Positions 6,501-23,852 of a stretch of DNA of 64,000 bases are shown here, piece after piece. The notes beneath the pieces were generated by a model that had not been told where the DNA came from, did not search any database, and was given only the letters and a program-made list of their open reading frames with translations. The translations under genes and the position numbers were made by a program. Every line of letters begins with the position of its first letter. Position 1 is the stretch's first letter. Source of the DNA: Methylobacterium sp. Leaf91 (GTDB taxonomy: Bacteria > Pseudomonadota > Alphaproteobacteria > Rhizobiales > Beijerinckiaceae); NCBI RefSeq assembly GCF_001422815.1, contig NZ_LMMP01000045.1, forward strand, positions 188,504 to 252,503. The letters run 5' to 3'.

Positions 6501-8288
6501 CTAGCGTGCCGGGCGGTCGTCCCAGGTGAAGATGTCCCTGTCCTTGGTCTCGGGGATGAACAGGGCACCGATGACGGCCGTCGCGAGGGCGATGACGATC
6601 GGGTACCAGAGGCCGAAATAAATGTCGCCGGTCTGGGCCACCATCGCGAAGGCGGTGGCCGGCAGAAGGCCGCCGAACCAGCCGTTGCCGATATGGTAGG
6701 GCAGCGACATCGAGGTGTAGCGGATACGCGTCGGGAAGAGCTCGACGAGAGCCGCCGCGATCGGGCCGTAGACCATCGTCACGTAGAGGACGAGGATCGT
6801 CAGGATACCGATGATCGTCAGCTTCTGGACCGAGAAGATGTCGATCATCTTAGCGAAGTTCGACAGGCCGTCCTTCGGTTCGATGGCGATCTTCACGATG
6901 CTCGGGTTGTTGGCGCCAGGGTAGCCGGCAGCAGTGAGGGCCGCGCCGATATCCTTGGCGAAGGCCGGATCGGCGGCGGCGAACTCCTTGCCGGCGACGG
7001 TGACGGTGGCCTTGGTGCCGGGAGCGACCGGCTCGGTGGTGTAGTTCACCGCGGACCGGGCGAGCAGCGCCTTGGCGATGTCGCAGGAATTGGTGAACTT
7101 GGCCGTTCCCACCGGATTGAACTGGAACGAGCAATCCGCCGGGTCGGCCTTCACCACCACCTGCGTGCTCTGCTGGGCCGCGTGCAGGGCCGGGTTGGCG
7201 GCCGCGGTCAGCGCCTTGAACAGCGGGAAGAAGGTCAGCGCCGCGATGACGCAACCGCCGAGGATGATCGGCTTACGGCCGATCTTGTCGGAGAGCGCGC
7301 CGAAGAACAGGAATCCGCCGGTGCCGAGGATGAGCGACCAGGCGATGAGCACGTTGGCCGTGAACTGATCGACCTTCAGGATCGTCTGAAGGAAGAACAG
7401 CGCGTAGAACTGGCCGGTGTACCAGACTACGGCCTGGCCGGCGGTGAGGCCGAGCAGGGCGAGGAGCGCCCACTTGGCGTTGCGCCACTGGCCGAACGCC
7501 TCGGAGAGCGGCGCCTTCGAGCCGGTGCCCTCGTCCTTCATCTTCTTGAAGGCCGGGCTCTCCTGCATCTGCAGACGGATCCAGACCGAGACGCCGAGCA
7601 GCACGATCGAGACCAGGAACGGAATGCGCCAGCCCCAGGCGGCGAAGGGCGTGATCGTCCCGGCCGAACCGTCAGCGAGGGTGGTGGCGACGGGCGCGTA
7701 GTTCGCGTTGACGTAGATCTGGGTGAACAGGATCACCATCAGCGACAGCAGCAGCCCGAGGGTCGCCGTTGTCTGGATGAAGGCGGTGTAGAAGCCGCGA
7801 CGCCCGGGGGGAGCGTGCTCGGCCACGTACACCGCTGCGCCGCCATACTCACCACCGAGGGCGAGACCCTGGAGCATGCGCAGAGCCAGCAGCGCCACGG
7901 GCGCGACCCAACCGACGCCGTACTCGTTCATCGTGGCGTAGGAGGGCAGAAGGCCGACCACGAAGGTCGAGATGCCCATGATCAGGATGGTCACGAGGAA
8001 GGTGTACTTGCGGCCCACAAGGTCGCCGAGACGTCCGAACACCAGTGCGCCGAAGGGACGGACCAGAAAGCCCGCTGCGAAGGCCATCAGGGCGAAAATG
8101 TTGCGCGTGGCTTCCGGATAGGCCGAGAAGAACTGCGCGCCGATGATCGCAGCCAGCGATCCATAGAGATAGAAATCGTACCACTCGAACACGGTACCGA
8201 GCGAGGAGGCCAGAATGACCTTCTTCTCGCCGGCACTCATGGGCCGTGCGGCTTCCTTTGGTAATGGGACCGCTGACGTTGCAGACAT
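6501..8288 (-). CDS. MFS transporter of the metabolite:H+ symporter type with a large periplasmic-loop insertion
   Basis: A 595-residue inner-membrane symporter. The ATG at 8288 is preceded by GGAGG at ideal spacing; the longer TTG-initiated frame includes that ribosome site and is rejected. Family motifs include EWYDFYLYGSLAA in TM1, RPFGALVFGRLGDLVGRK between TM2 and TM3, and LGGEYGGAAVYVAEHAPPGRRG. These are typical of MHS symporters for small organic acids or osmolytes. An extra hydrophilic segment of about 120 residues (about 359-481) with two Cys lies between late transmembrane helices. The substrate cannot be told from sequence. A strong hairpin beyond the stop separates it from the convergent DUF2252 gene. 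Confidence 0.88.
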   Translation of the reverse strand: MSATSAVPLPKEAARPMSAGEKKVILASSLGTVFEWYDFYLYGSLAAIIGAQFFSAYPEATRNIFALMAFAAGFLVRPFGALVFGRLGDLVGRKYTFLVTILIMGISTFVVGLLPSYATMNEYGVGWVAPVALLALRMLQGLALGGEYGGAAVYVAEHAPPGRRGFYTAFIQTTATLGLLLSLMVILFTQIYVNANYAPVATTLADGSAGTITPFAAWGWRIPFLVSIVLLGVSVWIRLQMQESPAFKKMKDEGTGSKAPLSEAFGQWRNAKWALLALLGLTAGQAVVWYTGQFYALFFLQTILKVDQFTANVLIAWSLILGTGGFLFFGALSDKIGRKPIILGGCVIAALTFFPLFKALTAAANPALHAAQQSTQVVVKADPADCSFQFNPVGTAKFTNSCDIAKALLARSAVNYTTEPVAPGTKATVTVAGKEFAAADPAFAKDIGAALTAAGYPGANNPSIVKIAIEPKDGLSNFAKMIDIFSVQKLTIIGILTILVLYVTMVYGPIAAALVELFPTRIRYTSMSLPYHIGNGWFGGLLPATAFAMVAQTGDIYFGLWYPIVIALATAVIGALFIPETKDRDIFTWDDRPAR

Positions 8289-13586: not shown

Positions 13587-16511
13587 TCACGCCGTTCTGA
13601 CCGCCGCCTGCGGTGGAAACAGCATTTCCACCAGGGTGCCTTCATCCTTCCGGCTCTCGATGCGGAAGCGGCCATGATTGGCCTCGACGAGCGCCTTCGT
13701 GAGCGGCAGACCGAGGCCGGTTCCGGTGCTTCGTCCGTCCGCACGTCCCCTGGCCGAGGCCGCCACGGCGATCTGACGGAACGGTTCGAGGGCGGTCTCT
13801 ACCTCGTCGGGGGTCATCCCGATTCCAGTGTCGCGGACCCTGAGGGCGATCTCGCCACGATCCGCCATGGTGGTGGAGACGATGACCTGTCCGCCAGCCT
13901 CGGTGAAGGCGATGGCGTTGGCGATGATATTGAGCGCAGCCTGCCGTACCGAGCGCTCGTCCGCGACCAGCATCGGCAGGTCGTCGGAGAAACTCGTCCG
14001 TACGACGATTCGATCGCGCATCGCCTGCGGCTGCAGCATCGCGACGCAATGGGTGACGACGTCGTTGAGGGGGACCTCAACGAAGGTCAGGTCGAGGCGG
14101 CCGGCTTCGATCTTTGCAAGGTCGAGCAGGTCGTTGACGAGACTGAGGACGTGCGTTCCTGAAGCGTGGATGTCGCCCAGATAGTCGCGGTAGCGCTCGT
14201 GGCCAACCGGACCGAACGGTTCGGCTAGCATCATATCGGCGAAGCCGAGGATGCCGTTCATCGGCGTGCGGATCTCGTGGCTGATCCGGGCGAGGAAATC
14301 CGATTTGCGTGCGCTGGCATATTCCGCAGCCTGCCGTGCGTTCGACGTTTCCGCTTCGATACGTCTGGTGGCGCGAACGTCCCGCACGGTCATGACCATG
14401 CGGCCGTCGTCCCGACCGGCGAGGGGGGTCACCTTGATCAGCAGCGGAGACATGCCGGCGGCGGTGCGACCGATCACATCCGGGGTCGCTTGCGCGAGGA
14501 CGGTTTGCCCCGAACCGGCTATGCCATGGACGCTGGCGAGCACTGCTACCGCGCTTTCCGCTGCGAACAGGCTGAGGATGGCGGCACCGACGACTTCGCG
14601 CGGGTCGAGGCCGAAGGTCGTTGCCGCGCTGCGGTTGAGCCCGATGATCCGCCCATTCCGGTCGAGGGTGATGACTCCGTCATCGAGGCTGTCGAGAACG
14701 GCCTGCGCATCGGCGGCTCGGGCTCCCGCGAAGGCGTCGGCGATCTGCAGGGCAACGCGCTCACGGCCAGGCTCACCGGCAACGGCGTCGCGGATGAGGA
14801 GAAGGTGAGCCGGTGCGCCGCGCCAATCGAGCTCGGAGGCCTGCATGTCGACGCTCAGGCGGTGCCCCGAGGCGGCGGTGAGGATGGCGGGTGTGCCGTT
14901 GATCTTCCGCTCGTGCGGGACGAGGCCGCCGAACAGCTTGCCGATGCCGCCCGATGCCGCCAGTTCGGCCAGATCGGCGAAGCCCGCCATCGCCAGCAGG
15001 TGGCTGTTGGCGAACAGGACGCTGTCGCCGCGATAGACCATCACGCCGCCGGGCACCCGCTCCAGCGTCGCGCTGACGGCGGCATTGGGGTCTTCCGATG
15101 CAGGCTCCGCGAACCGCGTCATCGCCGTGGGAAACGGAGTCACAGAACCGCCGGTGGCGCGCTCGTCGCCGGTCCTGGCCTCCGAAACCTCATCGTCGGG
15201 CGTGCTATCGCCTGCGAAGCGCGCGCCCAGGGCCCGCGCGATTTCGCGGAACGCTGCATGTTCGTTGCTGGACAAATGCGGGTCGTGCAACGGTGTCCAG
15301 GCGTCTTCGTCAGTCGTAGGGGGCTCTGTTCCGGTCGCAGACCGTTCGGTCGTTTCTTCCCCTGACGGCTCCACGTTGAGGAGGGCGAGGGAGGAATCTC
15401 CTTCCGCAGCAGCGGCCGGATCATCACCGATCGTCGCAAAAGCGGGTTCCGCCACGGGCAGAGCTGATGTTTCTTCGTTTCTCGCCGAGTCCGTTTTTCT
15501 CGCCGAGTCCATGGCGCTGAGCTCCATGGCCGTTGGCGTCACAGCCTCGGCAGTATCGGCAGATGCTCCATCATCGGGCTCCACCTCCGATACAGGCTGA
15601 TCGCCAGGATGCAGGTCGGTGATGATGTCCGCATGTTCTGGGCCCACCGACCCACTCTCCGATGACGCGGTTGAAGACCGCACCATGGCGAAGCCGTTGA
15701 ACCCGGTGAACTCGGCTGCCCCACGCTGGATCGGAGTGCCGGATATGTCGAGATCCATCGCGCCCGGCATGCCATCGGCCTGCAGCGTGACGGAAATTGC
15801 ACGAAAGGTCCGGCGCTGGGCCAAGGCCTGCAGGAGCCCTTCCGCGTCGAGCAGCGTGCGCGTGTGTGATAGCGCAGCCCAGGTCCTTCCGATCAGTACG
15901 GGTTTGACTGCGGCGGCGGCGGGGCCGGAAATGTCCGTGAGCCTGTCCTCGGCGTCGCTTTTCCAGGTTACGCGCCCAGTCCGCACCGCGCGGCTGTCCA
16001 ATGGTGCGGACGTGTCTTCGAAGGCGGAAGGACGCGGCTCAGGTGCTGCCGTCGGATCGGCCTGTGCGCGCTCCTGTTCGCCTGCGCCTTTCTGGGGCAA
16101 GGCTCGGTGGCCCGGCAGGCGATCGAGGACCGCCACGATCACGCAATTACGACCCGATGCATCCTTGGTCCGCAAAGCAAGGCAGGTCGTGGCCTGTCCG
16201 AGACGCCGCGTGTCGAATCGCAGCTTCATCAGCGATGGCCGATCCAGCGGCAGGGCGCGCGGACGAATTTGTTCGCCCATGCGAATCGCGTCGTCGATCC
16301 GGCCCGATTCGCCGTCGCTCAGAGACCGCGCAAGGCCATCCGCCGTCGAAGCCAGCAGGATTCGCTCCGCCGTACCGTCGAGCACAAGCCACACCGCGTC
16401 TGGGCCGCTCAGGCGAGCGCCAAACCGCGAATCACCGCTCCAGTGTCTAATAAGGTCGCCGAGGTCCGGTTCAGGGCCGGATATCGGTTCTTCAGCCCGT
16501 CTTTCGAACAT
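13587..16511 (-). CDS. PAS-containing sensor histidine kinase, PdhS/PleC-like
   Basis: A 974-residue protein with no obvious transmembrane segment, so probably cytoplasmic. About 1-480 is long and low in complexity, with acidic stretches. PAS-like segments follow at roughly 480-700, for example LDSLDDGVITLDRNGRIIGLN. The kinase core begins at SDFLARISHEIRTPMNG, with the phospho-accepting His near residue 745. The ATPase domain shows NIIANAIAFT (N box), VRDTGIGM (G1) and GTGLGLPL (G2). The run FGPVGHERYRDYLGDIHASG-HVLSLVNDLLDLAKIEAG is very like PdhS/PleC/DivJ kinases of Hyphomicrobiales, which control cell division and polarity through DivK. No response regulator is adjacent. Confidence 0.85.
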   Translation of the reverse strand: MFERRAEEPISGPEPDLGDLIRHWSGDSRFGARLSGPDAVWLVLDGTAERILLASTADGLARSLSDGESGRIDDAIRMGEQIRPRALPLDRPSLMKLRFDTRRLGQATTCLALRTKDASGRNCVIVAVLDRLPGHRALPQKGAGEQERAQADPTAAPEPRPSAFEDTSAPLDSRAVRTGRVTWKSDAEDRLTDISGPAAAAVKPVLIGRTWAALSHTRTLLDAEGLLQALAQRRTFRAISVTLQADGMPGAMDLDISGTPIQRGAAEFTGFNGFAMVRSSTASSESGSVGPEHADIITDLHPGDQPVSEVEPDDGASADTAEAVTPTAMELSAMDSARKTDSARNEETSALPVAEPAFATIGDDPAAAAEGDSSLALLNVEPSGEETTERSATGTEPPTTDEDAWTPLHDPHLSSNEHAAFREIARALGARFAGDSTPDDEVSEARTGDERATGGSVTPFPTAMTRFAEPASEDPNAAVSATLERVPGGVMVYRGDSVLFANSHLLAMAGFADLAELAASGGIGKLFGGLVPHERKINGTPAILTAASGHRLSVDMQASELDWRGAPAHLLLIRDAVAGEPGRERVALQIADAFAGARAADAQAVLDSLDDGVITLDRNGRIIGLNRSAATTFGLDPREVVGAAILSLFAAESAVAVLASVHGIAGSGQTVLAQATPDVIGRTAAGMSPLLIKVTPLAGRDDGRMVMTVRDVRATRRIEAETSNARQAAEYASARKSDFLARISHEIRTPMNGILGFADMMLAEPFGPVGHERYRDYLGDIHASGTHVLSLVNDLLDLAKIEAGRLDLTFVEVPLNDVVTHCVAMLQPQAMRDRIVVRTSFSDDLPMLVADERSVRQAALNIIANAIAFTEAGGQVIVSTTMADRGEIALRVRDTGIGMTPDEVETALEPFRQIAVAASARGRADGRSTGTGLGLPLTKALVEANHGRFRIESRKDEGTLVEMLFPPQAAVRTA

Positions 16512-21244: not shown

Positions 21245-21460
21245 GTTCACAGGCTCCGCAGCACCGGTCGGTACCACTCTCTTGGATCGATGCAATGCAA
21301 GAGGTGCGCCCAACGTCATGGCGGCCCGTGATGTCGCCTTCACGGCACAGGAGTATTGGCCTGAATATCACCGCTGGGGCAATGCTCCTTGAGCTGGTTC
21401 GATAGCGATCGTCATCAAAGTGAAAGCGGCCCTGGCCGATTCATCCGCGGTGGGCAGAGT

Positions 21461-22093
21461 TCAGGGCACTGGCGGAGGAGGATTGCTGGTTGCGTGCTCG
21501 GCTTCCACCAACACATCCTGGGGGCGCCAGGGTTTGGGGATGAAGACCACCCTTTCCGGCAATGCGTCCGGTCGCGGAGCACGTCGGCCGGATGTGACCA
21601 CCATCCTCGCCGTAGGCCACAGCATCGCGACGGCACGCGCCAGTTGCAGGCCGTCCATGACGCCCGACAGCTGGATATCGGCAAAGACCAGAGCGACATC
21701 ACCGCCCCTGTCCCGCATCACGGCCAGAGCCTCTTCCGCCGTAGCGCAGCCGATAGCATCGAGCTCAGTCTCGTCCAGCAGGGCGACTGCCAAGCCTTGT
21801 GTCGATGCGTCATCCTCGACCACGAGGGCGAGGCGGCCGGATTTACGAATCGGCGCGGAGATAACGGGATCGGGCTCAGGCGTGGCTTCCGGCTGGTGGA
21901 CCTGACGAACGAGGGCAGCCAAGTTCTCCGGAATGCCCTCGGCGATCAGGTCGTCATAGAAGGACGCGAGGGCTTCGCCGATTTGGTCGAGGGCGAGGCC
22001 AGGCGCGAGCGTATCGTTGCCTGCGCGCTTTTTCGGAACATCCTTGAAAGGAGTAGGCGAACGATTGTTCGACGGGCCTTTCGGATCGAGCAC
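21461..22093 (-). CDS. Response regulator with an N-terminal NepR-like anti-sigma segment
   Basis: A 210-residue protein started at GTG 22093 behind GGAGG. Residues 36-67 (DQIGEALASFYDDLIAEGIP, then ENLAALVRQV) match the core of NepR anti-sigma factors: IG-x2-L, YD-x-L-I, E-x-IP, L-x2-L. Residues about 87-200 are a receiver domain with acidic pocket E93-D94-D95, phospho-acceptor D139 (VFADIQLSG), S168 (VVTSG) and K187 (FIPKPW). Joining a NepR segment to a receiver is the reverse of PhyR, which joins a sigma-like domain to a receiver. A role in the general stress response is inferred. A weak promoter-like match (GCAAC-N17-CGTT) lies at 22150-22175. No partner kinase is adjacent. Confidence 0.75.
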   Translation of the reverse strand: MLDPKGPSNNRSPTPFKDVPKKRAGNDTLAPGLALDQIGEALASFYDDLIAEGIPENLAALVRQVHQPEATPEPDPVISAPIRKSGRLALVVEDDASTQGLAVALLDETELDAIGCATAEEALAVMRDRGGDVALVFADIQLSGVMDGLQLARAVAMLWPTARMVVTSGRRAPRPDALPERVVFIPKPWRPQDVLVEAEHATSNPPPPVP

Positions 22094-22283
22094 GTCATCC
22101 CTCCGGTTTTCGTCATCTGCATGGTGCCGCCGCGTGCGGCCCCAAGCTCAACGTAGGGACTCAGGCGTCAGTTGCTCCCATGGCGCAACAAGGGTTGGGC
22201 CGATGGCGAATCGATCCGGGAAATGCGATTGCTGGGGGGCAGGACCGACGGCGAGATCGGCGCATAAATGCGGTTAAGCGCGG

Positions 22284-23775: not shown

Positions 23776-23852
23776 TGGTACCACTGCCCCGGCTCGAACG
23801 GGGGACCTCTTGATCCACAATCAAGCGCTCTAACCAACTGAGCTACAGCGGC
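23776..23852 (-). tRNA. tRNA-His (anticodon GTG)
   Basis: The minus strand folds as a full cloverleaf of 77 bases with encoded CCA. Acceptor GCCGCTG pairs with CAGTGGT. The D-arm is GCTC/GAGC, and the anticodon stem CTTGA/TCAAG encloses TTGTGGA (anticodon GTG at 23816-23818 on the plus strand). The T-arm is CCCCG/CGGGG with TTCGAGC. The discriminator base is A73 and the base before G1 is T, so no G-1 is encoded. This is the known alphaproteobacterial departure from the usual histidine tRNA identity. Confidence 0.95.

Follow-up and report, generated by a model that had tools for sequence, protein, structure and literature searches.

A NepR-like segment joined to a receiver domain in Methylobacterium, a possible phosphorylation-dependent input to the general stress response

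Within the window, the whole 64,000-nucleotide stretch of the Methylobacterium sp. Leaf91 genome that was analysed, the minus strand of 21461..22093 encodes a protein of 210 aa with a GTG start at 22093 and a TGA stop at 21463-21461. The sequence-only reading had described this ORF as a NepR-like segment followed by a receiver, and we found it as it had been described. The NepR-like segment occupies residues 31-67 (21893..22003, minus strand; Pfam match 36-67) and the receiver domain residues 87-203 (21485..21835, minus strand), with a variable linker of residues 68-86 between them (21836..21892, minus strand). The GTG start is credible, because a Shine-Dalgarno sequence, CGGAGG (22100..22105, minus strand), lies 6 nt before it and a similar purine-rich stretch, GGAGG or GGGGG, lies ahead of GTG or TTG in many of the fusion orthologues. 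An antisense open frame of 255 codons (21389-22156, plus strand) spans the whole fusion gene and is probably a by-product of base composition.

The receiver was matched by Pfam Response_reg over residues 90-192 with 31.6 bits, over the cut-off of 30.2, and on its sequence it is a member of PF00072 with the phosphorylation residues in place. These are the acidic triad E93-D94-D95 (21809..21817), the predicted phospho-acceptor D139 (21677..21679), the switch residue S168 (21590..21592), and the conserved lysine K187 (21533..21535), all on the minus strand. E93, D94, D139, S168, and K187 were invariant across 28 orthologues, as expected from the earlier description of an intact receiver, but position 95 of the triad was either D or E. 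Searching the window protein against Pfam up to E 10 returned nothing beyond Response_reg and NepR, and a PhyR-type sigma-like domain was absent.

The similarity of the N-terminal segment to NepR is weak for the single sequence and solid for the fusion family as judged from its alignments and profiles. Pfam NepR (PF18557) matched residues 36-67 of the window protein with 21.0 bits and E 2.6e-4, and a match at E<=0.01 was obtained for 28 of the 28 fusion orthologues scanned (best 3.7e-6); by E-value the match of the segment to the NepR family was thus significant, but its score lay under the curated cut-off of 25.7 bits. The fusion set comprised 48 loci, among which that of the window occurred twice, and 38 distinct proteins, of which 28 were given to Pfam. 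NCBIfam had no match for the 48-residue NepR-like segment and only receiver-containing families for the protein, and in single-protein Pfam scans (n=10) the NepR match was absent in four, namely two partner ORFs and two diverged fusions.

An HMM of 31 canonical NepRs, taken as Pfam hits over the cut-off and cut by position without any motif (31 of 32, with one contig-end locus dropped), gave every one of the 38 distinct fusions a score of 9.2-19.2 bits; the highest score among 1900 shuffled copies was 4.8 bits. An earlier HMM of 17 motif-chosen NepRs gave 9.7-19.9 bits for the fusions versus 4.9 or less for shuffles. Those 17, out of 33 loci, had passed a motif requiring R/K/Q and PxP, and they are unusable for residue counts, which would be circular because the motif itself demanded these residues; hence the counts below are from the motif-free set. 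When a profile of 16 fusion segments was compared with one of 14 NepRs from the motif-chosen set, the score was 95.3% (E 2.2e-8); the reversed profile scored 4.2%, and the highest of 100 column shuffles 21.4%. Among the 28 orthologues the mean majority frequency was 0.84 for residues 31-67 and 0.80 for the receiver, but 0.37 for the linker and 0.36 for the N-terminal 30 residues. The alignment thus shows two domains under constraint, joined by a linker that, like the N-terminus, is free to vary.

Like NepR, the fusion has a core of 32-35 residues with the order IG-x2-L ... Y ... E-x-x-P, and two helices are predicted for it at modest to low confidence, but NepR is a small, stand-alone protein and the fusion is joined to a receiver in one frame. 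The IG, L, YD, E, and second Pro of PxP were retained in 38/38 distinct fusions, the second Pro being present in 30/31 canonical NepRs. The first Pro of PxP was found in 25/31 canonical NepRs (one had Gly), whereas it was Gly in 38/38 fusions, and the basic residue after the conserved Leu, present in 31/31 canonical NepRs (R 26, K 4, H 1), was Ala in every one of the 38 fusions. The loss of this basic residue makes direct sigma binding by the fusion doubtful, and a family-wide Arg-to-Ala change could mean a different partner.

Single-chain structure prediction with AlphaFold2 (18 sequences) placed helices at residues 33-51 and 58-62 and modelled the linker as loose and the receiver with confidence. 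The mean pLDDT was 74.9; by tens over residues 31-70 it was 61, 67, 57, and 43. In a second run, with the M. gossipiicola protein heading the alignment, the helices were at 29-49 and 54-61 (62, 62, 52, and 38 by tens over residues 31-70). Two helices, as anticipated, were therefore predicted in both models, the first at modest and the second at low confidence. Helix alpha4 of the receiver was absent from both predictions. Since the second run produced five widely differing models (mean pLDDT from 69.5 to 50.0), the predicted helix pair is a hint and no proof of a NepR shape. Nearly all of the best 50 of 1610 Foldseek matches were labelled receivers or response regulators, and NepR and PhyR were absent among these 50. 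Sequence searches of the PDB likewise retrieved receivers, and the E-values for NepR 3t0y were no better than 0.69, 0.3, and 0.39. For the profile of the NepR part, a match to 21 residues of ATP-citrate synthase (E 7e-4) outranked NepR 3t0y (E 0.39); this match, which stood above NepR in two of the three PDB searches, was judged to be a chance helix.

The fusion was present in at least 51 of 59 Methylobacterium genomes at E<=6.8e-60, with matches starting at residue 26 or earlier. A diverged match was found in four of the 59 (G035, G038, G040, and G053); the NepR-like start was visible in G035 and G038, and the matches in G053 started at residues 51 and 54. Among the matches listed, G011, G014, G019, and G023 had receivers only. 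When 397 genomes of the order were searched, 9/9 Methylobacterium had a match from model position 30 or earlier, and none of the matches listed outside Methylobacterium started before position 50.

Gene order around the fusion was the same at 17/17 named loci, with a lytic-transglycosylase-like gene, the fusion, and two transglutaminase-like genes. The transglutaminases and a nearby YkuD gene were named by Pfam, which had no match in the lytic-transglycosylase-like gene, whose name is our own reading; a phasin gene is also a neighbour. No general stress response genes were found among these transglutaminase-like, YkuD, and phasin neighbours. Diverged fusions were read at four loci (L062, L063, L064, and L073), of which L062-L064 were without the neighbour genes of the window and had a Pfam NepR match in one of three. 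A tRNA gene (23779-23852, minus strand) lies in the window between the lytic-transglycosylase-like gene and a chloride-channel-like gene, both named by our own reading. About 5 kb from the fusion, a PAS-HisKA histidine kinase is encoded on the minus strand at 13587-16511, with no sign of partnership.

The canonical EcfG promoter, GGAAC-N16/17-SGTT, precedes both nepR and phyR in the window genome, but as a candidate promoter for the fusion it was rejected, since the 250 nt upstream of the 38 distinct fusions contained it in no case. A looser scan accepting eight of the nine consensus bases found it before 9/38 fusions versus 2.97 in shuffles, with none perfect. A different element, GCAAC-N17-[CG][GT]T[TC], was located 55-113 nt upstream in 36/38 distinct fusions against a shuffle expectation of 0.18, a count that is inflated by the kinship of the sequences and that concerns a pattern derived from the same data. 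In the window it reads GCAAC-N17-CGTT (22150..22175, minus strand); counted over the window alone, the pattern occurred twice versus 0.57 expected, which is not beyond chance. ECF-type promoters carry AAC in the -35 box, and GCAAC differs by a single base from the EcfG -35 box, so that on sequence the element resembles an ECF-type promoter. It also preceded 5 of the 35 second-locus receivers described below (expectation 0.24).

The joining of a NepR-like part to this kind of receiver extended beyond the fusion itself. On the Microvirga ossetica plasmid NZ_CP016619.1, a 65-aa ORF overlaps by 20 nt a receiver gene whose product is 52% identical to the receiver of the fusion, and this ORF matched Pfam NepR weakly (14 bits, E 0.041, behind another family). 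A 63-aa ORF on a second M. ossetica plasmid, NZ_CP016620.1, was over the NepR cut-off (26.3 bits) and stands before a shortened receiver; the two pairs lie at L171:3799-4378 and, with the shortened receiver, L170:4025-4660. In genus g390 of the same family (G812), an ORF scoring 37.1 bits with our own NepR HMM ends about 30 nt before a receiver domain, and a single frame in genus g395 (G849) contains both a NepR-like stretch and a receiver. Of 18 loci inspected outside Methylobacterium, 4 had a NepR-like neighbour or fusion; upstream of the receivers of L173, L180, and L182 there was no NepR-like neighbour.

A second, paralogous receiver was present in 59/59 Methylobacterium genomes, and just downstream of it a small NepR-like ORF was found at 29 of 35 distinct loci (36 loci, two of them the same place), with none in the opposite-strand control; the search model was made from ten of these same ORFs. 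The six receivers lacking the ORF were those of L104, L112, and four loci of one subclade (L164, L165, L166, and L169). In the window genome (G000 C3), the stand-alone receiver and the small NepR-like ORF that follows it lie at L057:6407-6841 and 6904-7161, and in G047 the pair is about 2 kb from nepR-phyR. As a profile, the second-locus ORFs scored 97.0% against canonical NepR, while the best of 100 column shuffles scored 4.1%, and Pfam NepR matched 7/10 of the ORFs submitted at E<=0.1 (best 2.7e-10), with no match for the other three.

In a receiver tree of 52 rows, 16 fusions formed one clade (99/95), to which the diverged fusions and a close receiver without a NepR part, 'rec3', were sisters (97/84); the Microvirga, g390, and g395 receivers fell near the fusion clade with weaker support, and some long branches are unsure. 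Since separate NepR-like genes adjoin related receivers and g395 has another fused frame, we concluded that the pairing of this receiver family with a NepR-like partner recurs, either fused or as neighbouring genes. The existence of 'rec3' indicates that the pairing has been kept only in part. This recurrence is the best support for a function of the fusion.

No description of a NepR-receiver protein was found in the titles and abstract starts of the open-licence literature, in line with the earlier suggestion that the architecture is undescribed, and several known systems resemble it in part. In the known switch, phosphorylated PhyR takes NepR from EcfG (PMC12148442). PhyR, like the fusion, joins a receiver to a domain of the partner switch, but PhyR has the sigma-like domain that NepR binds and the fusion has the NepR-like side. 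HsbR/CrsR, as described in PMC6482189, unite a receiver and an anti-sigma domain in one polypeptide as the fusion does and feed a stress sigma factor, RpoS; their anti-sigma part is of the GHKL kinase type and is accompanied by a phosphatase domain, a different domain family from that of the fusion. The EcfG proteins of M. extorquens AM1 are described as carrying a NepR-like extension (PMC4814048), which in Methylobacteriaceae is N-terminal to another protein as in the fusion, with the difference that it is attached there to the sigma factor itself and not to a receiver. The same source describes three diverged NepR paralogues beside canonical NepR in M. extorquens (1275, 2700, and META2p0735), for which it reports no EcfG bound in two-hybrid assays and co-precipitation of PhyR with 1275 and META2p0735, and which it proposes to be competitors of NepR for PhyR. 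We set these paralogues beside the fusion by description, and one of them may be the fusion; the main text of PMC4814048 does not contain the word 'receiver'.

Two further receivers are linked to stress physiology, as the fusion may be, with no second domain reported for them: MrrA, a single-domain receiver that is a hub of the general stress response in Caulobacter (PMC5964349), and CstR (Mext_1965 of M. extorquens PA1), a stress and carbon-shift receiver with a stress/growth trade-off phenotype (PMC13344952). CstR is given as an annotated ORF of 126 codons that a start farther upstream extends by 54 codons (PMC13344952). The idea that CstR is the fusion gene found no support: in five genomes that we guessed to be near M. 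extorquens (G004, G015, G017, G026, and G051), none of the fusions had a start codon at a distance of 126 or 180 codons from its stop. Two other receivers in these genomes had 10 Asp in some cases, but 129 or 134 codons. The CstR primer had two matches in the 59 Methylobacterium genomes with up to two mismatches and none in 111 genomes of the genus with up to one.

The window protein has both domains, conserved jointly in its orthologues, and its receiver keeps the phosphorylation residues and belongs to a family repeatedly paired with NepR-like partners, fused or neighbouring. Tentatively, and at somewhat less than even chances, we read it as a phosphorylation-gated NepR mimic that acts on the PhyR-NepR-EcfG switch, mainly through PhyR. 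We infer its membership in the general stress response, a kinase, a phosphorylation gate, PhyR as the target, and the sign of the effect as follows. The fusion would be a two-domain response regulator with a flexibly tethered NepR-like helix pair as its output. Phosphorylation of D139 by a histidine kinase would change the availability of the NepR-like segment; the segment would then dock on a partner of the general stress response, most likely the sigma-like domain of PhyR, and compete there with real NepR, tuning the amount of sigma-EcfG set free. The conserved gene order and the closeness of the second-locus pair to nepR-phyR in G047 count in favour of this reading. Counting against it are the sub-threshold Pfam score of the single sequence and the lack of an NCBIfam match, the family-wide Ala, the missing canonical EcfG promoter, neighbours that hint at no role in the general stress response, the higher PDB rank of ATP-citrate synthase, the four of ten single scans without NepR, and the existence of 'rec3'. 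PhyR is favoured as the target because the homologues 1275 and META2p0735 are reported to bind PhyR and none of the three an EcfG (PMC4814048), and because the fusions have Ala in place of the R/K/H of NepR.

For the same reasons, competition for PhyR is now better supported than a mode of action proposed from the sequence, in which a receiver opens and closes its own anti-sigma surface. In that second mode the segment would bind a sigma-EcfG paralogue directly and bypass PhyR. It is in keeping with the NepR homology (28/28 Pfam matches, 95.3% between profiles), with the precedent of HsbR/CrsR (PMC6482189), and with the report that only EcfG1 and EcfG5 of the six M. extorquens EcfG paralogues bound NepR, the control of the others, notably EcfG2, by PhyR being described in the source as a matter that 'still needs to be identified' (PMC4814048). 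The Ala found at the basic position in 38/38 fusions and the failure of the tested M. extorquens homologues to bind any EcfG (PMC4814048) argue against it, and we regard it as unlikely. We hold it similarly improbable that the receiver is a phosphate sink or kinase hub, draining or sharing phosphoryl groups of the general stress response kinases while the NepR-like part only brings it to PhyR or the kinase. MrrA offers a parallel for such a role (PMC5964349) and 'rec3' stands without a NepR part, but in the fusion the NepR-like part is conserved at least as well as the receiver. Less probable still is that the protein no longer belongs to the general stress response and that its NepR-derived helix pair was recruited to an unrelated target; the family-wide Ala, the departure of the promoter-like element from the EcfG consensus, and the neighbourhood without general stress response genes would fit this, whereas it is opposed by the recurrence of NepR-like genes alongside receivers of this family, one such gene scoring above the Pfam cut-off. 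That the resemblance to NepR is due to chance in an amphipathic linker helix is highly improbable, for although the segment is short, scores below threshold as a single sequence, and is outranked in the PDB by a stretch of an unrelated enzyme, every fusion scored above the best of the 1900 shuffles, the profile comparison far exceeded its shuffles, and IG, L, YD, E, and the second Pro are kept throughout.

Read as a phosphorylation-gated mimic of NepR, the fusion suggests an extra, directly switchable input to the general stress response. More broadly, it is possible, though again short of an even chance and a shade more cautiously put, that Methylobacterium and its relatives possess a NepR/receiver module, as two genes or fused, in which the receiver gates a NepR mimic and provides a second phospho-input beside PhyR, in the form of a phosphorylation-controlled anti-anti-anti-sigma or anti-sigma factor. 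If this is true, the logic of PhyR would be reversed, the receiver of PhyR guarding a sigma mimic and that of the fusion a NepR mimic, and the fusion would be a direct candidate for the control of EcfGs such as EcfG2, one of those left in question in PMC4814048.

Two additional loci of the window genome were recorded as separate observations. At L002:902-1797 (minus strand), a second nepR, separate from the nepR-phyR locus, precedes an ECF sigma gene, and at L006:919-1755 (minus strand) an ECF sigma factor, EcfG by our reading, has a NepR-like N-terminal extension that Pfam matched weakly (13.1 bits, E 0.076).
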